Shown one piece after another: positions 8,876-58,728 of a stretch of 64,000 bases of DNA. The DNA is from Periconia sp. R9002 (taxonomy: Eukaryota; Ascomycota; Dothideomycetes; Pleosporales; Periconiaceae): the NCBI GenBank assembly GCA_023627715.1, contig JAMAHW010000060.1, positions 1-64,000 on the forward strand, written 5' to 3'. Both the position numbers and the translations under genes were made by a program. Every line of letters begins with the position of its first letter. The stretch's first letter is position 1. The notes below the pieces were generated by a model. That model was not told the origin of the DNA. It ran no database searches and saw only the letters and a program-made list of their open reading frames with translations.

Positions 8876-11800
8876 CTATTCTAGCCCATTTTCTAGTCGA
8901 TACTTTCTCCTCTCTCTACTTGCAAATGCCTGCAATTTCTCAAAAACACTGATCTTTCTCTTCTCCTTGATACCTGCCCCGTTAACAGATTTCATATCAT
9001 AATCGCAATGAATTGGAACACAGCATTGTGCGCACTTGAAACAAAGCACGAAATCCCGGCATATTGTACAATGTTGCCAGTCGCCGAATACACATGGTAA
9101 CGTGCATGCACTGCACATCGCGTAAACATCCTTCTGCAAGGCATTTCTTATATAATCCTCTATTGAGTATTCGTGTGAGTCATCGTGCTCTGGCAAGAGT
9201 ATTGCGTGCGCCAAAAATTGATTGTGCGCCTCGGCTACGTCCGCGGGGGTCCACTGATGGATGGACTCCTTTGCTATGCTGTTTTCGCCTTGTTGCTGAA
9301 GCAGTTCGATCACATCTGTGTCTCCCTGTCGTGAAGCCCAGTGGAGAGCTGTCCATCCATCGTGGTCTATTTGTTGGGGGGTTAGGCCATTGCTTTTGCC
9401 TGTCGCAACCACAAGTCTCATGGTATCAACCGAGGCGCTGATAGCAGCGAAATGAACAAGGCTACGGCCAAATAAATCACTGATGGCCGTATCCGCATAT
9501 TCTAGTAAGATGGTGAGGATGTGAGCATGACCTTGTGCGGCAGCGAGGTGGGAAGCCGTCCGACCTAGTGTATCCTGCTGGTTGACATCCACGCTTCCCC
9601 GAGACAACAGGAAGCGAACACAGTCTTCCTCTCCTTCCCTTGCTGCGGCATGCAAAGCAGTCGATCCTTGATCAGAGGGCAGAGCAAGGTTCGCCCCGGC
9701 AGTCTCAAACCACTGAAGGACCTGCACACATCCAGCTCCAGCAAGATTATTAAGTAGTGTTGGCCAACGCCGATCTGTGAAGTCAAATTGATATTGTTTT
9801 CTTTCTAGAAGCATCTCTAAAAAACCGCTGTCCTCTAGATTGACGGCTAAGGCGACTGCTTCCAGGTCTGGGGCGGCTCCAGCAGCTAATAAGTAGTTCA
9901 AACTAGCCATTTGTTTGCTCATGATGGCTCCATGTAGTGCTGATCCGACATCGCCGATGCGAAAGTTAATATCCAAGTTTTCCTTGAGCAGCTCAGTCAT
10001 TTTTGAGATGTCTCCTGCCGCGGAAGCCTGGACTAAAGCAATTTGGCGTAGAATCAGCACAATATTATTGTGCCCGTTCTCTTCAGCCCAATCTTCCGCA
10101 GTGCGTCCGAGATCGGCATCCCTAGAATCAAGATCGAGTTCTAAATCCTGTTCAAAAAGTAAGACCACGATGTCTTCGCGGTTGTTTTCAGCAGCAATGG
10201 AAATAGCGGTCCTACCGCGATGGTTCTTTGTGCTTGCTTTGTACTGCCGTTTGATCATGTGCTGGTAAACCATATGCGTACTTTGACTCCGTATAAGCTG
10301 AAAAAATTCATTGGTAGGAGTCGGGTCATCCCACGTGGTGGACTTGGTGTTATGGTCGATGAAATACCATCTACCGTCCTCGGTGCGCTCTACATCCCAT
10401 CCTGCAGGCAGCACACGTGTACTGTCCTCCTCGACAATGGCATTGATTAATGCAGAGACTATTTTTGCAATTCGTAGGTCTTCCTTATTCTGTACATATT
10501 TTTCTGGCCAATCACCCGTATATCTGAGCCTACGCTCCCTCATCTCGCGTGGCCATGGACTGATATGCCCAAAGTTTTCGTATACCGTATTCTCATAACT
10601 GGAGAATGCAGGATGTGAGTCCCCAAGCGAATTGACCGTGATCAACTCCGGCATATTGGCGGCGAGTGCTTCAAAGACTGGAACTCCTGTACCTGATACG
10701 GCACCACGCGATCGAAGAAGAACTGTAATCTTATTCAAAGATTGCCGCCAGGCTTGGAGCTCTCGCGCTCCTGCGTTGACTAAAAACTTTGGTTCTCTCT
10801 TTTTCCGCATCAAAGCAATATTCAAAGCTGTGAGCCCTGCTGACACTTCATTGGTGACTTCCGCGTTCACCTCAGCACCCGCATCCAGAAGCAGATGAAC
10901 AGCGTCAAGGTCGCCTCGAAAAACCGCCCAATGGAGAGGTCTAAATCCCGTTCTGGGATCAGCATACTCTAAGCATTCTGGGCCTGTAGTTATAGAGAGC
11001 ATGAGTTCAAGGAGCTGTCGATCGAAAGCTAAGTAATTTTTGCGCTGTTTGCCTGCGGTGAGGAACAAGGTTGACAATGCTGAGGTCCCATTCTTGGGGT
11101 TGATTATGTTCTGGACTCCTCCGAGCGCGGCGAGAAAGCGAAATGACTCTATTGGGACTTTGCTTCGTTCTGTAGCAACTGCCGCGCTTAATAGCTTTCC
11201 GAAACAGGTGAAACCTGACTCGGGGTGAGGACCCAGAATTTCTGCCATGCTTTCTGGAGGAATCAACAGGCTGGCTACTACCAAATTGCCATGCACCAAT
11301 GCAACGTCGAACGGCGTGGATCTATCGCTCTGCCGAAGACAAGGGTCTGCGCCATGATGCAATAGCAGCTTCACCCAAAAAGAATCTCTGTAGACTGCAG
11401 CAACATGCAAACCTGTACTTCCGTCATCATTCCGTACGTCTGGATCGCACCATCCTTTGTTGAGGATGTATTCTAGCATTGCCTTCTGTCTATGAAGGAT
11501 GCACACCTGTATGATCGTCAGGCCTTGTGCATCTCGTTGCTTTGCAATGAAAGCACGAGCGCTGAGTTCTTTCGCTTGTAATCCCTCCATCATAATTTTC
11601 ACGTCAACCACCCGACCTGCCATGATGGCTGTAGTAAGTGGAGCCGAGTCGTGAGCTGATTCCAGCGGGTCAAGTCCATGACGGAGGAAGATCTTTATTA
11701 CTGCCATTTGTCTTTCGATCAAAGAAGCTCCATGTAACCATCGTAGGTTCAATGATTGGTCGAAGTAGGAATACTGCAGAATACCAACGACTCTTACGTA

Positions 11801-14077
11801 GAGCTGAGTCATATCGACCCTGCGACCAAGAGTGTTAAGACAACTCAAAGCCGTTTCTAGCAGGGATGGCTCGCAGAAGTATGCAGACAAGTGTGCGAAC
11901 CATACCCATTCGTCATGCTCCAAGAACGTCTTCACCACACGATTCTGTATCGCAAACTCCGGTTCCCTCCACTTGGCACGTGGCCACATGAGCTTCCCTG
12001 CTGTATTGCTATCCCATCTTGACATGCTGTTCAGGAACGGTAATTGATTAGGCTGCAGGAACGGGCAAAGTGCGGCGAGGGGTGGCAACATGCAGGTGAA
12101 ACAGGCTCCATTCACTAACTTTGGAGGTTGCCAATTTGTGTTGTTGGGCCAAATCCGTAGCAAGATTGGCTCGTCACCATCATCATCTTCAACGGGTAAG
12201 AATGATCGGATCGCTTCGATGTCCACTGGATATTGAAGGGATAGGCAAATGTAGGATTCACGAAACCCCTTAAGTGTACTCAAGATTTGCCAAATACGAC
12301 GAGGAAGCTCGAGACTCGGGCAGCGGTCCACGGATGCTTCAAAAGGCGAATAAAGCGACATAGCCAGATCGTTACCAATTAACGCGGCGAAAGAAAGCCA
12401 AAGAAGCCCTTCTTGCTCGTCAAACGCTGTCCCAATGCCAGTCCAGTAGCAGAACGCAATGTCAAGCGCAGTCTCAGATAACTGTGAGTGCATCGGGTTC
12501 TCGAGATCCAAAGGATGTAGTGAATCATCGTAGCTGCGAAGTATTTGCTCCATCGCGGAAGGATCGCTTGGAAGCGGCCCTTCGAGATCATGTCCTTCCT
12601 TTGGCCAGTGTTCCTTGAGGGGTGAAATAGCCTGATGCAGCTTCTCGAAGAGCATCTCTTTAAGGCCATGATCCCAAGTGAGAAAAGTGTCAGTCGCTGT
12701 GAAAAACAGGCTTGTCGAGCGGTCGCAAGCAGGTCTCTCCTCACTCTTCAGCTCAACGGGTCCTTGAACCTCTCCGAAAGCTTTCGTCCCGGCCCGATGC
12801 AGAAAATCTAGAATGTCCTCCATACCAAGCCTAGCGCAAGGATCTTTACATAGCGATCGACGTGCAATAGAATAAGCGACCATAGCTTCGGGCTGCTCTT
12901 TCGTTAAGCGCAGAGCTAGGTTCAAAGGGCTTCCGTCATGTTCGTCTTCGAGAGCTTTAATCTCGCGGAAACTTGAAATCGAAGCTCTTTCCAGGTGCTG
13001 TATCAAGTCGTTCTCAGCTTGCTTGAGAATTTTGAGTCCTTCGATTCCGTTCGTATCTTTCATTTCTATTACTCTTTCGATAGTGCGCGTATGTTCGCGG
13101 TCGAAATTATCCCCCAGCGAAAGAAAATTGAGCAAAGAGAAGCCAGGGCAATGACATCTTTCGATCCATATTGAGACTATCAGAAGACCATAAGCGTATA
13201 CATCGCACTTTGACCAATCCGAGATTCCTTCACCCAGAAGCCATTCAGGTGCCATCCACGTCGGCGTTCCATGAGGTACTGCATCCCCCCGACGAGTAAC
13301 TTGTCCACTTCTAATGGCACCTGAAAAGTCAGTCAATTTACAGCAGATTTTATGCTCTAGGTGGCGTTGGACGAGAATATTGCTGGGCTTGAGGTCCCCA
13401 TGAACATACCCACAGGCATGAATGGCCTGCAGTCCTGCCGTGACGTCTACAGTGATTCGAATTCTCTCCATACTCGTTATAGTGTGTTTCCCAAAATCCA
13501 AGTCGGCCGAGGTAAGAAAATCGTCAAGGGTTCCAAATGCTGCGAGCTCGAGACCAAGGGTCGGAATTAGAGTGCTTGGCTCCCAGCCAATAAAGTATAG
13601 TTTGGCAATATTGGGATGACCGTCCAAAGTGCAAAGGATATCGACTTCCTTGCAGAACAGCCCGAGTGTACGTTCAGTCCGAGCTCTTTCTTCGCTCAGC
13701 TCAACGCGATGATAACGCTTGAGTGCAATAATTTGACCCGTTGAAAGTCCTTCCACAGCAGCGGCTGTGTCATTGTCGATTGGATATTGGCAGACCTCAC
13801 AAGAAAGCCCAGCCCCTAGAGTATGTGACAAAGATCGGATAGTTGTACTGTCCTCATCCAAACGCGAGGAGTCGGCGATATTGATTTGCGGAACGTCGGT
13901 AGACAGAATGTTCTTGATCATATCAATACTCACAAAATCCGCGACTATGAGATGTCTCTCTAAAGTCTCCAGGACCGGGTCCGAGCAGTCGTGTTGTAGC
14001 GATTCATCATCTCCTGGCTCGCCACTGGGTTCAGCCTGGTCCGCCCACAAAACTGGAGATGAAACGCGGAGATCCAT
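8876..14077 (-). CDS. Protein kinase with ankyrin repeats, WW domain and Cys-rich tail
   Basis: One uninterrupted 1733-codon frame. The N-terminal kinase domain spans about 85-430: VAIK-type lysine K120 in IALK, catalytic loop HGDLKPSN (H226, D228, N233), DFS in place of DFG (D250), and APE at 276-278. HRD is HGD, so this is a non-RD kinase. About 536-575 resembles a Sel1-like repeat. Ankyrin repeats fill much of 780-1130 and 1270-1630 (for example GSTALHAAAREGEEDCVRFL). A WW domain lies at about 1223-1256 (GWDVERTEDGRWYFIDH). The tail near 1649-1692 has many Cys/His pairs (CSACTLPC, CTICRDFVLC, CFKCAQC), suggesting a ZZ-like zinc fold. Kinase-ankyrin proteins of this build are common in fungal repertoires of signalling or self/non-self proteins. 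The partner is unknown. It is divergent to the HeLo gene. Confidence 0.9.
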   Translation of the reverse strand: MDLRVSSPVLWADQAEPSGEPGDDESLQHDCSDPVLETLERHLIVADFVSIDMIKNILSTDVPQINIADSSRLDEDSTTIRSLSHTLGAGLSCEVCQYPIDNDTAAAVEGLSTGQIIALKRYHRVELSEERARTERTLGLFCKEVDILCTLDGHPNIAKLYFIGWEPSTLIPTLGLELAAFGTLDDFLTSADLDFGKHTITSMERIRITVDVTAGLQAIHACGYVHGDLKPSNILVQRHLEHKICCKLTDFSGAIRSGQVTRRGDAVPHGTPTWMAPEWLLGEGISDWSKCDVYAYGLLIVSIWIERCHCPGFSLLNFLSLGDNFDREHTRTIERVIEMKDTNGIEGLKILKQAENDLIQHLERASISSFREIKALEDEHDGSPLNLALRLTKEQPEAMVAYSIARRSLCKDPCARLGMEDILDFLHRAGTKAFGEVQGPVELKSEERPACDRSTSLFFTATDTFLTWDHGLKEMLFEKLHQAISPLKEHWPKEGHDLEGPLPSDPSAMEQILRSYDDSLHPLDLENPMHSQLSETALDIAFCYWTGIGTAFDEQEGLLWLSFAALIGNDLAMSLYSPFEASVDRCPSLELPRRIWQILSTLKGFRESYICLSLQYPVDIEAIRSFLPVEDDDGDEPILLRIWPNNTNWQPPKLVNGACFTCMLPPLAALCPFLQPNQLPFLNSMSRWDSNTAGKLMWPRAKWREPEFAIQNRVVKTFLEHDEWVWFAHLSAYFCEPSLLETALSCLNTLGRRVDMTQLYVRVVGILQYSYFDQSLNLRWLHGASLIERQMAVIKIFLRHGLDPLESAHDSAPLTTAIMAGRVVDVKIMMEGLQAKELSARAFIAKQRDAQGLTIIQVCILHRQKAMLEYILNKGWCDPDVRNDDGSTGLHVAAVYRDSFWVKLLLHHGADPCLRQSDRSTPFDVALVHGNLVVASLLIPPESMAEILGPHPESGFTCFGKLLSAAVATERSKVPIESFRFLAALGGVQNIINPKNGTSALSTLFLTAGKQRKNYLAFDRQLLELMLSITTGPECLEYADPRTGFRPLHWAVFRGDLDAVHLLLDAGAEVNAEVTNEVSAGLTALNIALMRKKREPKFLVNAGARELQAWRQSLNKITVLLRSRGAVSGTGVPVFEALAANMPELITVNSLGDSHPAFSSYENTVYENFGHISPWPREMRERRLRYTGDWPEKYVQNKEDLRIAKIVSALINAIVEEDSTRVLPAGWDVERTEDGRWYFIDHNTKSTTWDDPTPTNEFFQLIRSQSTHMVYQHMIKRQYKASTKNHRGRTAISIAAENNREDIVVLLFEQDLELDLDSRDADLGRTAEDWAEENGHNNIVLILRQIALVQASAAGDISKMTELLKENLDINFRIGDVGSALHGAIMSKQMASLNYLLAAGAAPDLEAVALAVNLEDSGFLEMLLERKQYQFDFTDRRWPTLLNNLAGAGCVQVLQWFETAGANLALPSDQGSTALHAAAREGEEDCVRFLLSRGSVDVNQQDTLGRTASHLAAAQGHAHILTILLEYADTAISDLFGRSLVHFAAISASVDTMRLVVATGKSNGLTPQQIDHDGWTALHWASRQGDTDVIELLQQQGENSIAKESIHQWTPADVAEAHNQFLAHAILLPEHDDSHEYSIEDYIRNALQKDVYAMCSACTLPCVFGDWQHCTICRDFVLCFKCAQCCVPIHCDYDMKSVNGAGIKEKRKISVFEKLQAFASRERRKYRLENGLE

Positions 14078-14370
14078 TGTTTTTCAAAAGCTCGATATAA
14101 TATGACGGCCCTTCATGGTCTTTCGCATCGCCAAAGAAGTGTAGCAGATTATCAAGGTCACGCTGCCGCCTGAGGGGGGTGCCCGGCTCAGACAAGCCTG
14201 TTCACGCTGACTCGAGCTTTACCCGATGTAGCGCGGTCAATGCAGGTCGACGTATTCTATCGTATAGACGAAACCAATTATGCACGGACAGCACAGTCCG
14301 CTCCTCACAGCCTTGAATATCTCCTCCTGAATTCTCTCGCCTTTCGAGATTCACTTTCAAGACTTCTCAA
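14078..14370. promoter_or_regulatory. Shared promoter region of kinase-ankyrin and HeLo genes
   Basis: 293 bases separate the two start codons, which point away from each other, so both promoters must lie here or overlap the coding ends. I see no clear TATA box. Shared use suggests, but does not show, co-regulation. Confidence 0.6.
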
Positions 14371-16008
14371 ATGGCCGAGGCCGCCGGCATTGCGTTGAGT
14401 GCAGTAGCTCTCCTTGCTTCTCTTTCTACCGCAATTGATGGGTACTTGATTTTGGAACAGTCGTTCACCGCACAAGACGACGCTCGTTGGCTTTCACTTC
14501 GATATGGGTTTGAAAAGCAGCGCCTCGAGTGCTGGAGGCAAGAGGTCGAAAAATCGACGCATGAAGGCAACCATCGACTGGATACGTTGCCTCCAATTAT
14601 CGCACAGTTGATCAGTGCGACTCTGACTGAGATTTATATCACCCATAAGGAAATCGAGAAAATTGTTGCGAAACATCAGCCTCCGACCTATGTAACGTTG
14701 GCTAGTCCTGCCAGTATCTTGCGAAGGTTGCCTGTTGAGGTGGGAACGAGCCCCCGGAAGTCTGGCTCCAAAGAAAAATTCACTTGGGTGATTCGAGATA
14801 AGGACAAATTTACTGGGAAACTGGAGAAACTTGAAAAGGCCACGGACTACCTTTACCATATCCTTGGGCTTGATGCCTCAAGAGCGGCATCGCGTGCCCT
14901 GGCTGCGTATACCGTGGCCCCGATAGACCCGACCACGCATGCAGCGGAACTTGAATTCCTCCAGGGTCGTACGTCAGATGGAGTTTCGACATCTCCAAAG
15001 GATCGATTTATCGCGAGGTGTGCGCAGTTGAAGCTTTTCGACACAACAGAAACGACATGCAATGTGCCGAAGATCACATCTGATTCTTTGGACCTGGATT
15101 ACCCAGATGCAATGCGTTCCATGGCTTTTTACAAGCAGGGCCAGTCTGTTGGCCAGCGTGTATTGGTGGAGTGGAAAGTAATTTCCTCGGAGTTGTCCAT
15201 CGAACATAGAAAGATGGTACTCGAGAGGATAAGGTCCCTTGGCACTCTCCTATATATTCCAAAAGAAACCGACTTTCACGTTCCGACCTGTATTGGGATA
15301 TACTCCGATCCACAATGGCCTTTGAAATCAGGGTATGTGTACGCTGCACCACCTGTGGCCCCGTCGGATGCTCTTCTCTCGCCAGTCACGCTCAAAAACC
15401 TACTCGAAAGGGGGAAGAAGGAAGGGAATAAGGCACTGTTGGGAGAGCGATTCAGGCTGGCTCACAGTCTCGCCAGTTCCTTCGCTTTACTTCACTCTGC
15501 TGGCTGGCTTCACAAAGCGTTTCGAGCCGACAACATTGTCTTTTTCAGTAAATTTGACCCTGTTACGAACAAGATGCCCTTGGACACAATGCGTATTGTG
15601 GGTTTCGAACACGCACGTCCAGCTCTGCAAGATGAGCCTTCCATTGAGACTCCCCAAACCCTTACAGATGTGGACAGCATCCTTTACCAGCATCCCCAAG
15701 TGGGCGATGGATATCGAAAGGCCTTCGACATATATAGCCTCGGTGTTATCCTCTTCGAGATTGCCTTATGGCGACCAATGAGAGCCAAATTATCGCAGCA
15801 GCAGCTACAGATGAGTGCGAACGATTTGAAGAAGGCCCTCATCAAAGGCGCCGATGTGCTAGGAGGCGAGGTTGGCGCAGCTTATTGCGATGTTGTGAAA
15901 ACATGCCTAAGTGGAGATTTTGGTGTTGATGTAGAGCAGGAGGAGAATTTGTTACCGAGGGCCTTTTTGCTAAAAGTCGTTAATGTACTAGAGTCATGCC
16001 AGGCGTGA
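14371..16008 (+). CDS. HeLo domain-pseudokinase protein
   Basis: Single-exon gene of 545 aa. The N-terminal region (about 1-180) fits the HeLo (prion-inhibition and propagation) domain: a short hydrophobic start (GIALSAVALLASLSTAID), RYGFEKQRLECWRQE, and the later FTWVIRDKDKF plus helical segment. In HET-S-type proteins this domain forms membrane-perturbing assemblies in heterokaryon incompatibility. Residues about 260-540 have a kinase-like fold (ASSFALLHSAGWLHKAFRAD, DIYSLGVILFEIALW). The catalytic HRD aspartate context is changed (HKAFRADN) and DFG is replaced (VGFEHA), so it is probably a pseudokinase acting as sensor or scaffold. No C-terminal amyloid motif is recognised. Function in immunity is inference from family. 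Confidence 0.85.
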   Translation: MAEAAGIALSAVALLASLSTAIDGYLILEQSFTAQDDARWLSLRYGFEKQRLECWRQEVEKSTHEGNHRLDTLPPIIAQLISATLTEIYITHKEIEKIVAKHQPPTYVTLASPASILRRLPVEVGTSPRKSGSKEKFTWVIRDKDKFTGKLEKLEKATDYLYHILGLDASRAASRALAAYTVAPIDPTTHAAELEFLQGRTSDGVSTSPKDRFIARCAQLKLFDTTETTCNVPKITSDSLDLDYPDAMRSMAFYKQGQSVGQRVLVEWKVISSELSIEHRKMVLERIRSLGTLLYIPKETDFHVPTCIGIYSDPQWPLKSGYVYAAPPVAPSDALLSPVTLKNLLERGKKEGNKALLGERFRLAHSLASSFALLHSAGWLHKAFRADNIVFFSKFDPVTNKMPLDTMRIVGFEHARPALQDEPSIETPQTLTDVDSILYQHPQVGDGYRKAFDIYSLGVILFEIALWRPMRAKLSQQQLQMSANDLKKALIKGADVLGGEVGAAYCDVVKTCLSGDFGVDVEQEENLLPRAFLLKVVNVLESCQA

Positions 16009-30018: not shown

Positions 30019-31857
30019 ATGTCTGGCAAGGGAACGTCGAAGAGCGGCGGCGCCGCCCGCCTTGATCTCACAAGTGTCGAGGATGCCAATACTAACATTG
30101 TGTATGAGAAGAATGGCAATGAGAATGATGAGCAGGACATGGACCGTATGGGTAAACTGCAAGAGCTGAGGGTGAGTGTCGCTTGTCGCGTACAACGCTG
30201 GACGTTGATGGCGTTGGTGTGCTGATCAGCCGATGAGCAGCGAAATTTTAAGTTCATGTCCATCTTTGGATACGCTGTCATCCTTGGAAGCACCTGGGAG
30301 TACGCCCTGGTGTGAGTTGAACTCCAGCCTTCATTTGCGCCACGTCGATCGTTATGCATTAACTCATGTTCCTATACCGCAGCATTATCGGCATATCGCT
30401 TAGCAATGGAGGGCCTGCTGGAGGTATCTGGATGTTCCTCGCTGTCTGCTTTGGCATGTTGTTTGTTATGCTCTCCATGGCGGAGATGGCATCCATGGCA
30501 CCCACATCGGGCGGCCAATACCACTGGGTTAGCGAATTGGCCCCCAGGAAACATCAAAAGTTTCTCAGCTACATTGTTGGTGTGTTTCCTTCTGGTCTGA
30601 AACCAACACTGCAAAGCTGATGGATACATTCAGGGTGGATGTGTGTTATCGGGTGGCAGGCGGCTATGGCCACTACAGCGTTTGCCACTACTCAACAGCT
30701 TCAAGGCCTGATTGCTTTGAACGTGCCATCTTATATCATCAAAGGATGGCATAGCACTCTCTGCAGCATCGCGATTACCACCTTCGCCATTATCTGGAAT
30801 ACCATCTTCGTCAGACAGCTTCCACTGATCGAGGGTCTTGGACTGACCCTCCATGTCTTCGGGTTCTTCTCCTTCGTCGTCGTACTGTGGGTTATGGGGC
30901 CACGTTCAGACCCTAAAACGGTATGGACTACCTTCCAGGATAACAGTGGATGGGGAAATGTAGGCCTTTCTACGCTTGTTGGTATCCTCGGTCCCATAGT
31001 AACGCTCATTGGCTCCGATTCTTCATGCCACCTGTCTGAGGAGTTGAGAGATGCGGCGTACGTCCTCCCTAGAGCTATGGTGGCCACCGCTATTGTAAAC
31101 TACTCTCTAGGGTTCGTCATGACAGTTACCGTCATGTCGACACTCGGCAGTGACGTGTCTGCGATTTTAGGCACAACGTATGGCCAACCATGGATCCAAG
31201 TCCTCCTCAACGCTACAGAGTCAAAAGTCGGAACATCGATCATGACGGCAGTCCTCTGGCTTCTACTACTTTTCTGCTCAATCAACCAGATTACGACCTC
31301 GTCTCGTCAGCTCTTCGCCTTTGCCCGTGATCAAGGCCTCCCCTTCTCAGAATTCCTTGCTCACGTACGTTGGGACCTTTCCTTTTCTGAACTCCTTGTT
31401 TGCAAAGTCATTGACATTTTTTCAGGTGCGTCCGGGCATGGACGTCCCCGTGAATGCAGTCCTGGTGACTCTTCTCTGCACAACACTTCTCTCTTTAATC
31501 ATCATTGGATCGACAATCGCTTTCAACGTCATCACTTCTCTCGGCCAGCTCGGCCTTGTGTCGTCCTATATTGTTGTCATCGGCTGTATTTTCGCAAAGC
31601 GACTGCGCGGGGAAGCTCTCCTTCCCTCACGATTCAATCTCGGTCGAGCTGGAATAGTCATCAATGCTTTGGCCTTATGCTTTCTATCGCTGGCGTTTGT
31701 ATTTCTTTTCTTCCCCGCAGCGCCGCACCCGACACCACAAAGCATGAACTGGAGCTGTCTCATGTATGGATTCATTTTGGCCTTTTCACTTGCTTACTAC
31801 TATGTCTGGGGGAGACACAATTATATGGGACCGGTGGAATATGTAAAGAATCGGTAG
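30019..31857 (+). CDS. GABA/choline-type amino-acid permease (APC superfamily)
   Basis: Five exons: 30019-30171, 30241-30311, 30383-30579, 30634-31364 and 31426-31857, 527 aa. Introns are 54-71 nt; all phases close and rejoin conserved text (QELR-RNFKFMS, YIVG-WMCVIGWQ, LAH-VRPGMDVPVNAV). The cytosolic N-terminus is followed by about 12 membrane helices. The FGYAVILGSTWE, SNGGPAGGIWMF and MAPTSGGQYHWVSELAP segments are diagnostic of the fungal amino-acid/choline transporter family. It imports small amines or amino acids at the plasma membrane; the exact substrate is not readable. It is convergent with the amidase, which could use the nitrogen supplied. Confidence 0.9.
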
Positions 31858-32203
31858 TGGGACGCCTATTTAGCCAAGTAGGTGCGCTGCGAATTGATGA
31901 CGCACAAGGTTCATCGAATTCTGTACGTTAACCCGACGGCCAAGTTGTTCCATCTCTGAATCAAACCGAAGGCGATAGTTGTGCAATCTTTTAATGGACA
32001 TGGAAGCTTTCAATTTTATATCGTTATTCCTGGACATTGCCACGAGACGTCGAGCACCTCGAGCAGCTCCCAGCAGTAGCTATCTATGTATGTATTTCTA
32101 AAAAAGCGGGTGACCCGTTGGAGTTTTCAAGTAGTCACCTTTGCCAACGAGCCAGATGATGGCTGGCAGGAGCCACTCCATCTTCCAATTTCTCAGCCAG
32201 CAT
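31858..32203. other. 3' space between convergent genes
   Basis: 346 bases between the permease and amidase stop codons, expected to hold both polyadenylation signals. No gene. Confidence 0.6.
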
Positions 32204-44455: not shown

Positions 44456-45449
44456 CTACAGGGGGGGTACAATAACAGCTCCCGGTGGCGGCTTGTTGGC
44501 GGCCTTGAAGAAGGCATCACTATCGACCCCATTTTCAATCGTCCATGCTCTCAATGCCTCAAAGTCGCGACATATTTTCTTGTTGTTGAAGTCGGGCTGC
44601 GGCATCCGATGGCCCTCCACCCAATTGAAAGTAACCATGTCAACACTGCCCGTACAACGCAGAGCTTGCGCGAGTACGTCAAGACAATGATTTATATGCG
44701 CTTCATGCAATTCTGACCCGGGGCTTGGCCCTTCTTTTGGCTCATGATAGTGCGAGTACGAAATCTCCCTGCGAAGCTTGTCCAGACAGTGCAGGTGGTG
44801 AAAGACGTCCATGCCAGCGATGTACGCGTCGTCTCCAAGGTTAAGTTCAGTCGGTGCTTTGACGGCCACGCTGGGATCTTTTCCAAGCGCGAGGACATCC
44901 GCGGAGGAAATTATTATGGGTGCGATACTGCTGCCAATTGATTCCCAAGCTGCGTCGGCTTCAGCGCCGGTGCGCTTGCGCCAGATTGAAGGGGGTTCTG
45001 TGTCCCAGAATGTGCCGTTCGTGACTCGAGGCACTTTGGGAATGATAAATCTGTCGAACACTGGAGCTGTAAATTTGAAAATTTTGTTAGTGGATTAAAA
45101 ACGTCGTCGGAATGAGATATACTTAATGAGGGTGGGTATATATACAGTAATGGGATGTGGCTCTCCAGTAGTCCTGATCGGACAGAGTCTTCGCTCTACC
45201 AGACGACGATAGAATGGTTATAGACACCAAAAACAAAACGACATTTAGGATCGTTCCGATGACGAGGGCTTTGGTGGATAATGGACCCCCCACAAAGTCT
45301 CTCCGGTAACTTCTAGTGCGGCCTTTCCATAAGAGAAACTTCTCCACATCTGCGTCTCCGCCTCCCGATGATTCTTCTAACGAGAAGCTGTGGATGTCGC
45401 GTACACTGTCCAAATCTTCCAAACTCGCCCGTATGCCTGAGGACTCCAT
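44456..45449 (-). CDS. UstYa-family (DUF3328) oxidase, RiPP cluster
   Basis: Two exons: 45449-45146 and 45066-44456, 304 aa; 79-nt intron (GTATAT..TTACAG). The start is the ATG of MESSGIRAS; the frame upstream begins only with TTG. A short cytosolic N-terminus is followed by one membrane helix (about 61-80, ALVIGTILNVVLFLVSITIL) and a lumenal domain with the two family motifs HHLHC (191-195) and HINHC (225-229), presumed copper-binding and catalytic. UstYa-type proteins form the macrocyclic ether or C-C crosslinks of ustiloxin, phomopsin and asperipin in the secretory pathway. It lies 0.6 kb downstream of the precursor gene on the same strand. Which crosslink it makes is not readable. Confidence 0.92.
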
Positions 45450-46042
45450 CTTCTTGGATGAATCTGGCAAGATTCACTGTGCAGTTTTCATCCGATGTGG
45501 TGCTCTAAAAAGTGTACCAACGGGGCCTGGGCTCTAGTATAAAAGATGGGGGTAGATAGTGCGAAATTCTTTGTAACTTCAACACTTAGGATGTCCACAT
45601 GCTAAGTCTCCCCACACAAGCACGCAGGCGTTCCGCTGGTGCCAAGGATGCGGCTAAGTTTAAGGCGTTCAAGCGCCAACCCGCCAAGATACCAGGAGCA
45701 TAGTCTTCACTTATACGGGTTGGTTGTCGACGCGTCGCTGTAGAACAAAAGAGGAAGGTGTTTGTTTCCGTAAGACCGCCAAATATGACCTTCGTTCATG
45801 ACGCAGATAAATACGAACGATGATAGTTTAGGTAAATTTCGATGCTTAGTCGATCCGTCGGCATGTCACCTCGGCAAACAGGCGCTTGATCTAATCATAT
45901 TGTTTTTACTCTGTCCAACAATCGTTCAATGGGCCACAACAGAGTTCAAATAACTCTTTACAACATATTTGTGAAAGGCACCAATGCCCATTTTTGCTAT
46001 GTACCAGATCTCAAATTTAAACAGCCTGACAGCTGTCATAAT
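45450..46042. promoter_or_regulatory. Space between UstYa-family gene and precursor gene
   Basis: 593 bases that must hold the promoter of the UstYa-family gene and the 3' end of the precursor transcript. No gene and no clear operator seen. Confidence 0.5.
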
Positions 46043-46535
46043 TTACTGTTTTTCGCGTTTGTCAATGTAGGTGATGTCGTACCAGGCAGCGTCTGCATCA
46101 GCCTCACGCTTTTTCTTCTCCTCCGCACGTTTGTCAATGTACGTAATGTCGTACCAAGCAGCATCAGCGTCGCGCTTCTTCTCTTCTGTCTCGCGCTTGG
46201 CCTTGTCGATGTAGGTGATATCATACCACACAGCATCTGCTTCGGCGTCACGCTTCTTCTCTTCTTCTGCACGTTTGTCGATGTACGTGATGTCGTACCA
46301 AGCAGCGTCGGCATCACGTTTCTTTTCCTCCGCCTCACGCTTGACCTTGTCAATGTAGGTGATGTCTAATCGAAAATCAGTATGCGAGGACACATAAACG
46401 TCAATTCACAGACCAAAGCTTACCATACCACTGAGCGTCCGTTTCGCGGCTCTGGACCTCCTTGGGTTGAGCGGGGGCCGCACTGGCAAAGCCGGCAGTG
46501 AGCCCGAGAAGGGCGGAAACAGTGGAGAAGCGCAT
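46043..46535 (-). CDS. Dikaritin-type RiPP precursor with five WYDITYID cores
   Basis: Two exons: 46535-46424 and 46365-46043, 144 aa; 58-nt intron (GTAAGC..ATTAG). A signal peptide (MRFSTVSALLGLTAGFASA) is followed by a short leader and five units. The core WYDITYID begins at residues 36, 60, 84, 108 and 132, an exact 24-residue period, and is identical in all five. After most cores comes KR, then an acidic/basic spacer (A-E-E-E-K-K or similar), KR again, and D-A-D-A-A or a variant before the next W. These are Kex2 sites, so processing should free peptides such as DADAAWYDITYID. This is the architecture of ustiloxin (UstA), phomopsin and asperipin precursors. The intron cuts the first core inside its Asp codon, so gene finders may miss the signal-peptide exon. 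Confidence 0.93.
46046..46300 (-). repeat. 72-bp tandem coding repeats of the RiPP precursor
   Basis: Units start at 46300, 46228, 46156 and 46084 (the last partial), each 72 bp; the first unit is split by the intron (its W codon is at 46430). Core codons are nearly invariant (GAYATCACSTACATTGAC-like), while spacers vary, as expected when selection acts on the peptide. Confidence 0.9.
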
Positions 46536-47008
46536 ATTGAACACGACGAGGTGGGTGTTATGAGGCAAGGACACAGTCAAAATCTGATGTCAAGTTTGGG
46601 AAAGGCTTGATATATACACATTTTCCCTTAGTGTTAGCCTTATCATATCAAATGTAAAGGGTTGGCGAGATGCCAAGCTCCCGCTGACGAAAGTCGTTAA
46701 CACCTCACCTTCCTGATACAACTGATTCCAACAGAGGCAAATGTTGTAAATAGCACTGGCGCCTCCTTCTTGGCCAAATGTATTGCTTGGGTTGTGGAGA
46801 CATCACTTCATTGATACTAGCCATCACATTACAAAGGCAGGTAAGGTAAAAATGCCATTCCGACCACGCGACATGCAAGGCGATATCCGGCATTTACCAA
46901 TGCTAGTGTGGCAAGTAAGACTTAGGAACTGACCGTGGACAACAGGTAGGAAGGAAGTCACTTCATCCCTTCGACTTTCGACGTCTGCTGTGATTCAACT
47001 CAAGTCCT
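46536..47008. promoter_or_regulatory. Divergent promoter of precursor and second UstYa-family gene
   Basis: 473 bases between the two start codons. Reading toward the precursor, TATATA at 46616-46611 lies 76 bases before its ATG and is a good TATA candidate. No clear TATA box is seen on the other side. The shared space fits joint control of precursor and modifying enzyme. Confidence 0.6.
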
Positions 47009-48032
47009 ATGTCGGAGCAAAAGTACACTCCGCTCCACGACGAAGAGAGCAGCGAAGAAAGCCCTTCGTACCAGCACCCCGATTTGACTTCCTGGAGCCA
47101 TGGCTGTAACAGAAAGCAGCTGGTCGTTAACATAATTCTCTTCTTTACTGGGATTGTTGTAGGCCTGCTGATCAACTATGCGAGCCCACAGCGCACTAGC
47201 GACCATCTTGCACAATACTCAATGGTGCCATGTAAGTTTGAGGCAACATGATATATTATTTTGAATAGAACTGACAGACGAACCAACAAGCACCGGCATT
47301 TAAAGCCATATCGTCTCAGCCCTTAACACTTACGCATCACGATATCGAAGGACACGATCACAAGAGCCCTTACCAAGGCTTTCCTACCCCAGAAAGGACT
47401 GAGAAGTGGATGGATCTCATGAACGGTACGCTCAAAATATCCCCACCACTGGAAGCCCGCATGCTAATCTCATTTCCAATCCAGGCTATTCAATACGTGT
47501 CCCATCGACATCACTAAATGCTCTGAATCTGGAAAGCATTCCACTAAATGACGACTCAGGCGACGTTTGGGTCTCCATGAACGTCTACCACCATTTGCAT
47601 TGTTTGGATTCAATCCGACATCAGGTAGCCGGTGTCGGCTGTAAAACCCCGCATGATCAGGCGTCCAACCGTACGGATGATTACGAGAACGACGGCGAGC
47701 AGTACTTTCCGCCTCATATCGATCACTGCATTGAAACATTACGCAAGAGGCTAATATGCCAACCTGATCTCGGTGTTAGAGCCATTGCTTGGAACCCGGA
47801 TAAGCCCGGCGTAGCTTTCGCCAACAATACCGTCGCATCGGCATGCGTAAACTTCGAGGCCGTTCAAGCTTGGACAAAGCAGCATTCGTTCACCGAGGAA
47901 GAGCGTTTGATCACGAGGCCCGATGGTGGGGAATCTTTCACTCTATGGACCCTTGCAGACTTGCTAACGTGGTTTTTTACAGGTAAGATCTATCGTGGTC
48001 CGCGAACACCACCTGCCAGATGTGGACAATAA
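47009..48032 (+). CDS. Second UstYa-family (DUF3328) oxidase, RiPP cluster
   Basis: Three exons: 47009-47231, 47291-47425 and 47485-48032, 301 aa; introns 59 nt each. A polar N-terminus (MSEQKYTPLHDEESSEE) is followed by one helix (about 38-57, LVVNIILFFTGIVVGLLIN) and a lumenal domain with HHLHC (155-159) and HIDHC (197-201). Between the motifs is a longer insert (about 37 residues) than in the first paralogue. Dikaritin clusters usually carry two or more UstYa-like genes that act on different crosslinks or steps. It is divergent from the precursor, so very likely part of the same pathway. The extreme C-terminus may use another intron after WFFTG; I kept the open reading. Confidence 0.9.
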
Positions 48033-48292
48033 ATCGTAACTTCGTAGGATCGCAATCGTAGTCCTAGCGCCGTTGGGGATAACTAAAAGACTTGGCAAAT
48101 GTTGGTGATGGGGGCCGTATTCGGCGAGGTTGAAAGATTATCGATTAATGTACAAACTTAGAACACAACACTACCGATCAACTCTTATTTGTAAAATTTC
48201 CATTCCGATGAAATATATCTGAGTAAACTTCTACATTCCAACTGAGTCAGTGTTAGTATTAGGTGATTGAGAGTTTCTATTGACTACATTCC
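48033..48292. other. Intergenic, promoter of the RTA1-like gene
   Basis: 260 bases, no gene or motif recognised. Confidence 0.5.
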
Positions 48293-49428
48293 ATGTCACC
48301 GCCCACTTTATCTTCGAGTAACAACTGCCCCGAATCTACAGTGACTCCAGACAGCAATGGATGGGTGCCATCTGGAACATGCGGTTACCTTTCTCGGCCA
48401 TACTACCCATCATTCATCGCAGCTGTCGTCTTTTCTGCGGCCGCAGCCATCGTTTTAGGATCGTTTGTACGACATACAGTCCGCCTGGCCCATTGTGTTC
48501 ATTTTCGCGGTGGTCCATCGGGAAAATGCACACCCTCACCTAGGCTAAAATTGATCTTCCCTTCGATTGGAGTTCTTCTTTCTTCATGTCTCCTCCTGGC
48601 CTATGTTCTACGTGCAATCGGCACAAGAAATCAGCAAGCGCCCGTGTTTGTTGCTCTTTCAGATACACTTATTCTAGTTTGTCCAATCTGTCAGTCCTCT
48701 CTGAAATCTGCTTGTGTAACTTCATCCTGACTACTTTCATGGTAGTGGTATTTGCATTTGACTATGCCATTCTCATTGGAATCGCGAAAACTGTAAACTT
48801 GACCGGGGAATGGGCTAGATTGAGGAGCAAATCCGTCCTACAGGCTCTTTCCGTGACAACTGCAATTCTTGCGGTGGAGCACCTTATTGCCAGTGTGCTC
48901 ATCGCTCCCAAGCATCGACCCAATGTCAACAGTGGAGCTTCTAGCACAGCCATGACTGGCATTCGACTCTACCTTCTCGGAATTGGGGTCCATGAGCTAG
49001 TTCTTATTTACACGCTCTCTCTCGCAGTCATCTTTCATCGTCAATCAATTGAGAAAATGGAAATTCCTGATGAGGATAGATTGGATAGCGGTAGGTTTAT
49101 ACCAGGCAAGTGGCTCCAGCCATCATCTGTTCTACTTTTCAGTCTATGCGCTATTTTGACGAGAGTCACTTATCGCCTGGTTGAGCTTTCGGGGCTGCTG
49201 GGGGGTCATTTCTTAGTGCTGGCGCACAACGAGGTATTCTTTTACACACTAGAGTGTTTACCTGTTCTATTGGCGCTTGGTGTATGGAGTTTTGTGGACA
49301 TGAAATCCTTTCTGATTCCACAAGGTTCCATAAGCAAATCTACGAATAGCTATAGCTACCATGAAATCAGCGACGAGATTACTGAAAATGATCCAATACG
49401 ACTGGTGGGAGCAGACAGAGAGGAATAA
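48293..49428 (+). CDS. RTA1-like multi-pass membrane protein
   Basis: Two exons: 48293-48689 and 48746-49428, 359 aa; 56-nt intron with a CTGAC branch site, joining LILVCPI to LVFAFDYAIL. About seven helices are visible: SFIAAVVFSAAAAIVLGSF, IFPSIGVLLSSCLLLAYVLR, the helix across the junction, SVLQALSVTTAILAVEHLIA, LYLLGIGVHELVLIYTLSL, SVLLFSLCAILTRVTYRLVE and FFYTLECLPVLLALGVWSF. The TRVTYRLVELSGLLGG..NEVFFYTLE stretch is the RTA1 signature. RTA1 relatives confer resistance to membrane-active or toxic compounds and are called lipid-translocating exporters. Its place beside the RiPP genes suggests export or self-protection, which is inference. Confidence 0.85.
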
Positions 49429-53561: not shown

Positions 53562-54826
53562 ATGGAGAAGATCAAAACTCGAGTCCATCAATTCCTTCAT
53601 CAGGAAGCCAACATGAAGGAGATAATTCTGAAAAATCTGAAGGGATGGAGTTCACGGATTTGGCAACAATCTTTAATAAGTGACTGGATTGCGATTGCCC
53701 TTACTTTGGGCATCATTTTTTGCTGTAAGTGTCGTTCTCCAGTGCTACGTCCAAATTAAATTAGGCTGCGCTGACAGGAGAGAACCCGAAGCCATCGTTC
53801 TCGGGGGTTGCTCTCATAGCTCACCAATCATACGTTCGATATATCTCTTCCGCATTTATAAAGCTCCCATTGAAGTCCGTGTCGGCATGTTCTCTGTCTG
53901 CGCAAAATTGAACGGCGGGCCATGGTCCTGTGGAAAGCATGCCCAGGGGTTAGCAGCATCCCCCGTCAACGACCAAGAAGTGGTTCTCGCACTGCAATTT
54001 GCAAGTTCTTTACAGACGAGTTTGGCTTTCCCGTATACCATGTAGACCTCCCTGATCCTCCGTGAAAGAGTGCATGACTAATTCCTGAAGAATCATCGCT
54101 ATCATTTTTATCACTATCGCAGTCATCATCCTGTGTACATTTCCTCGCCGTTGGCACAAGGAGGTCAACGAAGAAACCGGTGGTTCGGTGGACATACTTC
54201 CCTTCCCGAGCAGGAGATCCATGATTGCGTCTTTCAACCTCATGTTTGTGGCGACACTATTCTTGATCGTTTCGATTCTGTGGCAGGTTACCGCATCCAA
54301 TGCGATTCAAGCAATCTCGTCAAATAGTGGCTTTGAGGGAAAATCGAGTCGTATTGCAAAAATACTGACTGGTTTACCAATCGCGATTTTTGGAATCTCG
54401 GCCTTCCTAATGCTGGCGTATCTGCTGGGACTCGATTCGATTAATTCACTTATATTCAACGATACATTCTCGGAGAGTAGCTCAGAGGAAGCTGAACAAG
54501 CAGGATCACGGAGTCAATCACGGGCAGCGTCCCAAGAAGGGTCTGAAGCGGATTCACAGGCAGAGTCACAGGCAGAGTCACAGGCGGGGTCACGGGCAGA
54601 ATCACGGGCAGAATCACGGGCGACAAATCCTTCTGTGACCACCGCGAGGCAAGCCTCATCACTGGCCAGCCAACGCAGTCGGTACTCCCCATACTATATT
54701 CCGGGGGAGGCCCAAGGTCTAGAATCGCTCGTTCCTGGTCTCAATATAGAGCTCGTCAGTCCGCAAAAGACTCCAGCAAGCAACAAGGCGACAGGACACA
54801 TTAGTCTGAAGAAACGCCCATGGTAG
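53562..54826 (+). CDS. FIG1-like (claudin-type) membrane protein
   Basis: Three exons: 53562-53724, 53792-54041 and 54091-54826, 382 aa. The first helix (WIAIALTLGIIFC) leads into LGGCSHSSPIIRSIYL and the extracellular VRVGMFSVCAKLNGGPWSCG, the Cys-bearing signature of FIG1/claudin-like proteins. Two more helices follow (AIIFITIAVIILC and FNLMFVATLFLIVSILWQVT), with the conserved LPFPSRR between them, and a fourth (IAIFGISAFLMLAYLLG). FIG1 proteins regulate calcium entry and membrane fusion during mating and hyphal fusion. The cytosolic tail holds a Ser/Ala/Glu/Gly/Arg repeat. The acceptor of intron 1 (CCCGAAG at 53791) is chosen by frame and is less certain. Confidence 0.8.
54553..54625 (+). 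repeat. 12-bp coding minisatellite
   Basis: Six tandem units of TCACAGGCAGAG and variants (TCACGGGCAGAA) encode S-Q/R-A-E/G repeats in the FIG1-like tail. Likely variable in copy number between strains. Confidence 0.85.
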
Positions 54827-57136
54827 TCTACAATATGACCGCATCGCAACCAACAACGATACGCAAACCCTTTATCGAAGCATCATAATCCTCTTAGCAA
54901 GACCGTGAATTTATTATCTGCTACAACATTGTTAGACATGCAAGTATGCTTGGCTGATGAAAATACTATTGCATCGTGACTGATCGATACTCCAAGCAGA
55001 TATTACACCAGGGATCACTGGGTGGATTGGGCAATGTCGTCTCGAGCGTAGGAGGTTACGGCCTTCTGGATATCACGTTATCAATTTTTTCATCGACAAC
55101 GGTAATTCGGCGAGATATTGTTTGGCACTTGATGGTTCAGCGCAATCGGTCGAGTCAACAGAGTCGAATGATATCTCTGTCTGTCAATTTTCAGGGTATT
55201 TTCCTTCGCCTTAATCTTTCGACTGCAAAGAAGCGCATTGTTGTGGAAACTTTCGACATGACGAACGGAGATCCACGGCGTTTCTAGGATGCGGCACCAT
55301 TTACCGCCAATGTTGCCGGATACTCCGTGCGCGGGCTCAATACTCATGGGGCTGGTGGGGTGCGAATACGGGGAGGTGCGAATACGGGGAGGTGCGTATG
55401 GCGTGTTCCACTTGGTGGCGAGCCGGAGCAAAAGTATTGCGAAACACGGGCTAGTCGCGCACTTTTGCTAATAAAGCAAAGGAGAGGCTTGGAAGTTGGA
55501 TGTAAGCCGACGTTAGCATGGAAGACGGTCATGGTACATTGTACACTCCAGTGACATCTAGAATGAGAAAAGAAATAGCCGGTGAACTCGCCAAGATCCC
55601 GTCCACAAGCCCGTCAGATCGGCGAGGGCGTCCTCGTGCAAGCCGATGGAGGGTCATTTTATTGGCGACTCGCCTAGACTGCTTACAATCAATATTTGAC
55701 TGCTTTGTATCAAGCCACCTCTAACTCGGCTAGTGGGAGCTCTAGTCGACGTTTAACCCTATGTCAACTTCACTTCCGGGCCCTAGGACTTTACCCTTCA
55801 TTTCTGGGTTTCTTTTCTCTGTTCATTGTTCGTGCTTTTCCATCTTTGGTAGCCATCTTTCTGCGGGGTATTGTACTGTCGACACCGGCCTACCAAGTTA
55901 GTGTTGCTCTAAACGGAAGTTGTTTAGCATTGTACCTTTTCCCGGGTGCATGGATCGCCGGCTACAAGTGTTGGTTTACGAGCTCTCAGCACAAGCTTCG
56001 ATGCGCTAACGCAACACTAGGTCGTTGCTTTGGGGGCCACATGTGACTTTTTAGCCTACTGCAAGCAGGCAACCGTTTCCGCGTACCCGGTATCACTGAA
56101 CTTCAATCTATTCTGTATAGCAAAACAAAATAGTTCATCTTACGCCAGCAACTCACCATGAACGGTCTTACTCAGCCACCATCTGAATCCCACCAGGGAA
56201 ACTGGCGATCAGTCACGAGAAATGTCCAACCGAGATGCAAGGTGTGAAATACGAGTGTTGGTTTTCCACGAGCGGTTAGATATCGCGCGGCTGAGGTAGA
56301 TTACGACCAATCAAGTACATTCTCCATTCCAGCCACCACCCCTCTCTTTCCTCTAAAAGTCCTATTTAAGTCCATCATTTCTATACACGGAAGCTCCGGA
56401 AGGAACAAAAGCTTCAAAAATAAGTTTCTTTTTACTCAATGCACTTTAGCTTAACCATGACCAACTAGTCTTCATACCATGGCCATGGATTCTCGTGGAT
56501 AAACCCGTAGATGCATGGTAGATGCATGGTAAGGCGAGCATAGGGAATTCTATGTAAGACTTACGTGAATTTCACCTTTATTAACCGGCACTTTATCCAT
56601 CAATGGCCGGTAAGTCTCGATCTTCCAAGCTGCAGCTGCAGGTTCCTCACAGCTGCCGTCCAGGCACCAGGCACCGGGGCGTTGGAGTAACGGGCCGCGA
56701 GAATGCCCGGCGACCGTGCATCTTGTCCCTCAACCTACAATTAACGCCACGTGAATCTGTTCTAGAAGGTGCATTTTCCCGGTAGCGAATTCGAGAGGCG
56801 ATTTCACCCTGCATGCTGACAACAACACGCATTGATGCTATTCTATCACACGCAGGATCTCGTTGCCCAGCTCGGATCGGTCCGCCATGGATGAGGACAA
56901 ACCTCTCACGCTCACATGATGATGAATTACGAATGCTGTGTAGTGGTAAGTGACTCTGTGCCCTGTTGTCATCTGTCATACCCACCCAACGTCGTGTAAG
57001 TAGTTCTCAAGCATGTATACTAATCTTACAAGGCGGTGTACACGGGTCAGCCAAGACTCGTCTATAAAATGCCCCTTTGACCGCGCATCAGTTGGTTCTT
57101 CATCCGCAGGTTTCGATCTTCACAGTGTTGCCTACC
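54827..57136. other. 2.3-kb stretch without a firm gene
   Basis: Short frames at 54976-55287 and 55696-56046 have no domain or clear start context. A 16-bp tandem repeat lies at 55356-55399 and a short direct repeat (TAGATGCATGG) near 56510. The last 150 bases must hold the promoter of the flavoprotein gene. Confidence 0.4.
55356..55399. repeat. Short tandem repeat, 16-bp unit
   Basis: GGGAGGTGCGAATACG and variants repeated about 2.6 times. Confidence 0.8.
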
Positions 57137-58728
57137 ATGCGCTTCAGCAATGTTCTTTCCGCTGGCTTGATTGCCTCCACGGCCGACGCTCTTGTTTTGC
57201 GAGCTACCATTGAGCAATGTCTCACAGATGCCAAGGTACCACTTGATACTAAGGGTTCCGCGGAGTGGAACGAGGACGTCGCTCCATTCAACATCCGGCT
57301 GCCCTACCTTCCCACCGCTATTGCTAGGCCTCAAAACACCCAGCACATCCAGGGCGCCGTTAATTGCGGTAGACAACTTGCGATCAAGGTCTCTGCTAAG
57401 TCTGGTGGCCACAGCTATGCAAGTTTCGGATTCGGTGGCGAAAATGGCCACCTGGTCATCGAGCTTGACCAGATGTACAATGTCACCTACGATGCAAGCG
57501 CAAACATTGCTACAGTTCAACCTGGCGCCAGGCTAGGTCACGTAGCAACCGTGTTGTATGAGCAGTATGGACGTGCCATTGCACATGGTACATGCCCTGG
57601 GTAAGCTACTACGTGAAACAATCATAGCATGCTCAGACAACTAACATTTTACAGTGTTGGCGTGTCTGGCCACTTCCTGCACGGAGGCTTTGGCTTCAGC
57701 TCCCACATGCACGGTCTAGCTCTCGATTTCGTTCAGAGCGTCGACGTCGTTCTAGCGGATGGTACCGTGAAAACGGCTTCTAGCACTTCCAATTCCGATT
57801 TGTTCTGGGGCATCAAAGGTGCCGGCTCCAATTTCGGCATCGTAGCTTCCTGGAAACTATCTACCTTCGCAGCGCCTGCAAGTCTCACCAAGTTTGGCGT
57901 TACCCTCGGCTGGAACAAAACCAATGCTGTTGCTGGCCTCCAAGCAGTTGAGAATTACGTCAAAAACGTTCAGCCCCGTGAAGTCAACTTCCGCATTGGC
58001 GACTACAACAAGGGCCAGCCTGGAATCGAAGGCCTCTACTATGGAACCCCGGCGCAGTGGCAAACAGCTTTCCAGCCTCTTCTTGACACACTACCGAAAG
58101 GTTACACTGTTCAGCCAACTCAGCAGCTCAACTGGATTCAGGCTGTCATCGCTTACTCTAACTACGATAACGTTGATTGGATTCACCCCAGCCCTGTAAG
58201 TACAATCCGCTTCTTCTAAATCTCCTCACATTCCATCTAACAGCAATGCAGCAAGAGAACTTTTATTCGAAGAGCTTAACTTTGAAGGGCCTGAACGGAA
58301 CTGCCGCTCAAGCGTTTGTCAACTACTACTTCGATGTGGCAAACAAAGTCACGGACCGTTTCTGGTTCTTCCAAATCGACGCACACGGTGGCAAAAACTC
58401 TCAGATCACCAAGGTAGCCCCGGACGCGACTGCGTACGCCCACCGCGACAAGCTTTACATTATCCAGTTCTATGATCGTTATGATAACGATCAGGTCTAC
58501 CCTAGTACTTCTTTCGGGTTCCTCGATGGCTGGGTCAATGCCGTTACCAAAACCCTGCCGAGCTCTGACTGGGGTGCTTACATCAACTACGCTGATGCGA
58601 GGCTGTCGCGTGATGTGGCTACGCAGCAATATTATGGATCTCACCTTCCCAAACTACAGAGTCTGAGGGCGAAGTATGACCCTAAGGAGCTGTTCTACTA
58701 TCCCCAAGCAGTCAAACCGACAGCATAA
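57137..58728 (+). CDS. Secreted FAD-linked oxidase (BBE/GOOX-like)
   Basis: Three exons: 57137-57600, 57655-58195 and 58252-58728, 493 aa; introns 54 and 56 nt. A signal peptide (MRFSNVLSAGLIASTADA) is present. The PCMH-type FAD domain shows SGGHSYASFGFGG, whose His is one covalent FAD site, and GTCPGVGVSGH, whose Cys is the second, so the flavin should be bicovalent. The C-terminal berberine-bridge segment KYDPKELFYYPQAV is present. Relatives oxidise oligosaccharides (glucooligosaccharide oxidase) or secondary metabolites. It lies 9 kb from the RiPP precursor with unrelated genes between, so sugar oxidation outside the cell is the safer guess. Confidence 0.9.

Follow-up and report, generated by a model that had tools for sequence, protein, structure and literature searches.

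We analysed a stretch of 64,000 nucleotides from the ascomycete Periconia sp. R9002 (positions 1 to 64,000 of contig JAMAHW010000060.1; hereafter the window), which is part of a contig of 249,995 bases (C60) in a genome of 42.9 Mb in 267 contigs. The interval of interest, 44456–49428, runs exactly from the stop codon of one UstYa-family gene to the stop codon of a gene for an RTA1-like membrane protein, and holds four genes. Between two genes of the UstYa family, here called UstYa-A and UstYa-B, lies the gene of a repeat precursor with five identical copies of the octapeptide WYDITYID. An earlier note, made from the letters of the sequence, had proposed a candidate cluster of the dikaritin type, a class of ribosomally synthesised and post-translationally modified peptides (RiPPs), with an undescribed core. 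The proposal is supported by the repeat precursor, the two UstYa genes, their apparent linkage to it in some relatives and the lack of any paper that we could find on the core, and we consider it likely, with good confidence, that the interval is a minimal RiPP locus of the dikaritin type.

The precursor, the UstYa proteins and the RTA1-like protein

The precursor gene lies on the minus strand and consists of two exons (46535–46424 and 46365–46043) encoding 144 residues, with the cores at residues 36, 60, 84, 108 and 132, a period of exactly 24 amino acids. Its intron (46366–46423, minus strand) is 58 nucleotides long, reads GTAAGC...GATTAG, is in phase 1 and separates Tyr from Asp in the first core. 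A dibasic site follows every core, as KR immediately in three of the five and as KVKR or KAKR in the other two, and upstream of each of cores 2–5 stands KR, then acidic residues and alanine (once a valine). The cores had been described as bracketed by Kex2 sites; this holds for cores 2–5 on both sides and for core 1 on its downstream side, but core 1 is preceded by the leader and not by a KR site. The N-terminus resembles a signal peptide by eye (it ends in ASA before AP) and was not flagged by a 19-residue hydropathy scan with a threshold of 1.6. The description of a precursor with five identical cores was correct, and the precursor is of a putatively secreted type, the signal peptide being recognised by eye.

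The array is beyond chance, because the cores are invariant while the spacers vary and because relatives exist in named fungi. Its tandem-repeat score is 421. Five bases vary among the five copies of the core and all five changes are synonymous, one of these sites being a transversion; the rough product probability of this outcome is 8e-5, given that 22 of the 144 possible single changes are synonymous, or 2e-3 on a count of transitions alone. The four spacers, by contrast, vary at 31 of 48 bases and at 11 of 16 residues. The relatives and the synonymous-only changes in the core together rule out a chance or non-coding repeat. The open frame that covers the repeat on the plus strand (45929–46369) is taken to be a shadow of the array, because the minus-strand frame, the one for which relatives were searched, has relatives and an intron that completes core 1. 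The precursor also scores 26.6 bits against Pfam DUF2671 (cut-off 23.2) through the 20-residue stretch 48–67, with no single stretch passing alone, which we attribute to the Glu/Lys-rich spacer.

UstYa-A is encoded on the minus strand by two exons (45449–45146 and 45066–44456) and is 304 residues long, matching Pfam UstYa at 1.8e-51. UstYa-B is encoded on the plus strand by four exons (47009–47231, 47291–47425, 47485–47925 and 47983–48032) and is 282 residues long. Its Pfam UstYa value of 8.4e-35 and the search for its relatives are based on a 301-residue, three-exon model that still contains the third intron (47926–47982); four exons are the better model because the 19 residues encoded by that intron are absent from all eight aligned relatives of the B group, five of them close. 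UstYa-A contains the motifs HHLHC and HINHC, and UstYa-B contains HHLHC and HIDHC, so that the placing of the precursor between two UstYa genes with these motifs was confirmed. Across 37 aligned sequences, both HxxHC motifs keep their His, His and Cys without exception. UstYa-B scored 14.4 bits against a methyltransferase profile, below the cut-off of 21.2.

UstYa-A has a strong hydrophobic helix at residues 62–80 and a marginal segment at 145–163 (1.61), and UstYa-B has a single hydrophobic helix at residues 37–55. The UstYa-family protein CctR is described as a membrane enzyme that depends on copper, with a binuclear copper site made by its paired HxxHC motifs and with its C-terminal domain in the organelle lumen (PMC12435403). 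One strong hydrophobic helix in the N-terminal third of each UstYa protein here fits that topology. In CctR the HxxHC motifs lie on helices (PMC12435403), and a structure model of the luminal part of UstYa-A (mean pLDDT 88.8) has the same arrangement, each motif being on a helix (residues 86–101 and 118–137). Among solved structures, a search by sequence gave none at E 1, and a search by fold gave 50 at E 10, which are taken as noise, and none at 0.001.

The gene of the RTA1-like protein (48293–49428, plus strand) encodes a multi-helix membrane protein of about 359 residues with one intron near 48690–48745. The match to Pfam RTA1 (1.3e-14), which bears out the earlier call of an RTA1-type membrane protein next door, is the better of two splice models scored; a third model exists, so the intron is approximate. 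The protein is a possible exporter or a bystander, and by its position may belong to the cluster.

Relatives of the precursor and of the UstYa proteins

Among 2748 candidates, 10 proved to be related to the precursor at E 0.1 or better, and nine of these reached 1e-3. The named sources are Periconia macrospinosa, Kalmusia and Bisporella, and all of these proteins are called hypothetical. Weaker matches were found elsewhere in the same genome, on contigs C11 (2.7e-4), C136 (0.058) and C14 (0.32). A pattern search for core units, in which position 1 was free, Asp3 and Tyr6 were required, and Y/F, I/V/L, S/T, I/V and D/G were allowed at positions 2, 4, 5, 7 and 8 (other variants being missed), found 21 units in eight of the 10 relatives; P0009 and P0010 gave none. 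Position 1 of these units is Trp in eight, Phe in seven and other residues in six; position 2 is Tyr in 18 and Phe in three, all three from Bisporella; position 4 is Ile in 13, Val in five and Leu in three; position 5 is Thr in 11 and Ser in 10; position 7 is Ile in 18 and Val in three; and position 8 is Asp in 20 and Gly in one. The core family, as judged from these units, would be roughly aromatic-[YF]-D-[IVL]-[ST]-Y-[IV]-D. The core type is present in both Periconia (Pleosporales) and Bisporella (Helotiales).

Intron-like read-through occurs at the same place in the core in the protein records of relatives P0002, P0004, P0007 and P0009. By eye, and from protein records only, the read-through falls in unit 2 of P0002 and P0004, in unit 1 of P0007 and in at least two units of P0009.

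Linkage was judged by a proxy, namely that the longest contigs listed for two relatives are equal in size, which does not amount to gene order. By this measure a precursor and a UstYa-A relative share the contig size 77,022 (P0005 and P0018) and, in Bisporella, the size 821,261 (P0008 and P0021), and a precursor and a UstYa-B relative share the size 53,507 in Periconia macrospinosa (P0001 and P0061). Relatives of UstYa-A and UstYa-B are paired in the same way in Bimuria (625,023; P0017 and P0062) and in Periconia digitata (3,687,698; P0013 and P0063). This suggests that the precursor is linked to UstYa orthologues in three of the 10 relatives, which is three of the four on contigs of more than 50 kb.

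Among named fungi, those with the closest UstYa-A relatives include Paraphaeosphaeria and Bimuria (Didymosphaeriaceae, Pleosporales), and the relatives extend to Colletotrichum, Aspergillus and others. Several are labelled DOPA-dioxygenase by their sources. One of them, P0050 from Colletotrichum scovillei, is 439 residues long and also carries Pfam PF08883, for which a fusion and an annotation error are both possible.

Class of the locus, proposed pathway and alternatives

In the broad sense of the class, a Kex2-processed repeat precursor together with a DUF3328 (UstYa) protein, the locus has both elements: repeated cores with dibasic sites and, next to the precursor, UstYa proteins that each carry two HxxHC motifs. 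The strict sense of Ding, as quoted in PMC12048977, comprises five genes including a tyrosinase. The genome has 32 tyrosinase matches, none of which is on the 249,995-base contig, and the domain scans of the window, which covered 39 of the 61 open reading frames of at least 130 residues, some in part, gave no methyltransferase above the cut-off and showed no reductase domain. For the transporter or peptidase that the strict sense also names, the possible counterparts are the adjoining RTA1-like protein, which may be a bystander, and an amino acid permease at least 12 kb away. We file the locus as dikaritin-type in the broad sense, with a gene content nearest to that of asperipin-2a. A precursor plus UstYa proteins had been called the minimal hallmark of the ustiloxin, phomopsin and asperipin pathways; the locus has the sequence features of the broad sense, its signal peptide being judged by eye, and for want of a tyrosinase match on its contig it fails the strict ustiloxin and phomopsin definition.

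The cores of epichloecyclin and victorin differ from WYDITYID. Epichloecyclin (gigA) and victorin come from ascomycete multicore precursors that are likewise thought to be cut by Kex2, but their cross-link residues differ, as described in PMC9233826. Asperipin-2a of Aspergillus flavus shares a repeat precursor with Kex2 sites, a UstYa protein and tyrosine in the core, and is cited to exemplify clusters with the signature gene only (PMC7329392, PMC12048977); it differs in having one UstYa protein rather than two and another core, and no reductase domain was seen in the frames scanned here. Ustiloxin and phomopsin share at least two UstYa proteins, Y-x-I in the core and a Kex2-processed precursor (PMC7329392), whereas the locus described here differs in having no tyrosinase match on the contig, no methyltransferase above the cut-off in the frames scanned, an octapeptide core with two tyrosines and a 24-residue repeat. 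The Kex2-processed repeat proteins with DUF3328 genes described by Umemura 2020 (PMC7329392) are of the same general kind. Of the core types in that study, G-10 has the pattern YXIX, which all five cores in the window contain as YDIT, with Phe for Tyr in three and Val or Leu for Ile in eight of the 21 units from relatives. Type G-8, for which Paraphaeosphaeria and Periconia are listed, was set aside since its di-histidine motif is absent from WYDITYID (PMC7329392).

The kind of locus is not new, because the survey of Umemura 2020 arrived at 1758 precursor genes with DUF3328 genes alongside (PMC7329392); it is known and common, and what appears undescribed is the core, which we could not find described. 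WYDITYID is not named in the sections of that paper that we consulted, and its motif figure and supplements may list it. No main text of a paper matched the core or any of three pieces of it, supplements being unsearchable and a listing in a table possible, and of four shorter core strings only one matched, in five papers that are off the subject by title and listing.

It is very probable that the product of the locus is a small cyclic peptide whose general kind is known; the action of the enzymes on the precursor, the order of the steps, the cross-link sites and the product are all inferred, as follows. The precursor would enter the secretory pathway, where two membrane-anchored, probably copper-dependent UstYa oxidases would act in the lumen on the repeated cores, forming one or two side-chain cross-links through tyrosine. 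One candidate link joins Tyr2 to Ile4, at the Y-x-I spacing found in ustiloxin and phomopsin; a second candidate, instead or as well, is a link at Tyr6. Kex2 would then cut at the dibasic sites, a carboxypeptidase would trim KR, and a Ste13-type aminopeptidase would remove XA dipeptides to give a peptide ending in WYDITYID, which the RTA1-like protein may help to export. Umemura associated the YXIX pattern with Tyr–Ile cyclisation (PMC7329392). YDIT fits that pattern; the substitutions by Phe, Val and Leu among relatives weaken a Tyr–Ile reading, and the second Tyr is another candidate.

Several observations count against this interpretation. Tyrosinase is required for the cyclisation of ustiloxin and phomopsin (PMC7329392), and none was matched on this contig. 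The putative Tyr2–Ile4 link does not appear to be strictly kept among relatives, given the substitutions at positions 2 and 4. Linkage support is limited to three of the 10 precursor relatives, by equal contig sizes, and the Kalmusia relative, on a 1.5-Mb contig, has no UstYa partner on a contig of equal size. Among the relatives listed for the precursor, none is from Colletotrichum, Aspergillus, Bimuria or Periconia digitata; the precursors in those UstYa-bearing fungi may differ, be unannotated or be absent. Finally, UstYa proteins serve non-RiPP pathways too (PMC12048977).

That last point underlies one alternative, that the UstYa pair tailors another product, a polyketide or a non-ribosomal peptide, and that the repeat gene is an accidental neighbour. 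The genome contains 61 UstYa exon matches, and an oxidase of the FAD/berberine-bridge type lies at 57068–58725. Against this, no synthase domain was matched in the frames scanned from 39466 to the right end of the window, the polyketide-type domains at 3784–4638 are about 40 kb from the cluster, and precursor and UstYa genes lie on equal-sized contigs in three relatives, which leaves this alternative very improbable. It is also improbable, if a little less so, that the product is a linear secreted signal peptide, processed by Kex2 and Ste13 like alpha-pheromone, on which the neighbouring UstYa proteins do not act. The layout of KR and XA dipeptides before a peptide beginning with Trp does resemble that of alpha-pheromone (PMC7329392), but the gene is flanked by two UstYa genes, apparently linked to it in some relatives, and in the account of Umemura 2020 mating-factor and pheromone genes lack DUF3328 neighbours, with three exceptions (PMC7329392). 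The core also lacks the C-terminal motif PYG[L/M]P[I/V]G given for Pleosporales pheromones (PMC6339444). Two patterns for that ending had no match across the genome, which is uninformative for or against a linear peptide.

A different question is whether the cyclic peptide would be a developmental hormone, like POI2 of Neurospora, rather than a secreted weapon; the chemistry would be the same, and the two proposals are not exclusive. POI2, which is related to the precursors of ustiloxin and phomopsin, is reported to be required in sexual development (PMC7329392), the core type is kept across Periconia and Bisporella, and a partial Fig1-type membrane domain lies nearby (54089–54826). The Fig1 match is only partial and is tied to the cluster by distance alone, and POI2 is itself of the YXIX type. 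We regard a hormone role as possible but rather unlikely.

Other loci in the genome and significance

Elsewhere in the window, an amino acid permease lies at 30621–31928, at least 12 kb from the cluster, and a SUR7-like piece (below the cut-off) accompanies the Fig1-type domain (above it) at 53680–54826, perhaps as one mating-related membrane gene. At 8876–16008 there is an open frame of 1735 residues with kinase, ankyrin and WW domains, adjoining a HeLo-domain protein, an arrangement reminiscent of fungal incompatibility genes.

A repeat precursor lies alongside in two of 20 unselected UstYa regions of the genome, on C75 and C100. Both are on the minus strand beside an HxxHC gene, with YPESY-type cores at L016:2793–3002 (C75) and NIYPGVKYPGD-type cores at L020:3490–4164 (C100). 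Three-copy matches at L014, at L031 and on the plus strand of L012 were judged by eye not to be precursor-like. At C64:199000–204000 (L034), UstYa and tyrosinase matches lie some 0.5 kb from each other, which is closer to the ustiloxin arrangement; this 5-kb stretch showed no obvious repeat precursor, though two open frames in it with four dibasic sites were not looked into.

C11 and C136, found through their resemblance to the precursor in the window, also carry repeat precursors, there joined to a domain that has a pair of HxxHC motifs. The fusion, with cores of the form WYxDSA flanked by KR sites, runs in one reading frame at L012:880–1872 (C136, minus strand) and across one likely intron at L011:1363–2612 (C11, plus strand), and the two fused proteins are 50 percent identical over 240 residues. 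Pfam found no UstYa domain in the fused-locus proteins P0082 and P0084, and P0083 (the repeat part) was over the cut-off for DUF6348. Profile comparison of the fused domain with UstYa gave a probability of 4 percent, so that homology is unsupported. On their sequences these fusions are possible self-modifying fungal RiPP precursors. Among the titles and abstracts listed in a literature search, none showed a fungal repeat–enzyme fusion of this kind. Plant fused BURP precursors offer a parallel, and if the fused enzymes do act on their own repeats, they would be its fungal counterpart.

The locus in the window is compact: its core does not vary, it has two oxidases and no tyrosinase close by, and its relatives are spread over several fungi. 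This makes it tractable for studying what UstYa pairs do alone. It also suits the question of how a core with two tyrosines becomes cross-linked, at a time when five dikaritins had been reported according to a 2022 review (PMC10512285) against 1758 catalogued precursors. A broader proposal, which we hold only tentatively and think rather unlikely, is that the locus represents a conserved family of tyrosinase-free fungal cyclic peptides common to Pleosporales and Helotiales, in which two UstYa proteins would build a bicyclic octapeptide via Tyr2 and Tyr6 (possibly Trp1), a ring system outside the five dikaritins reported by 2022. If that were true, the phase-1 intron within the core would allow the array to grow, to shrink or to skip units with the reading frame intact.

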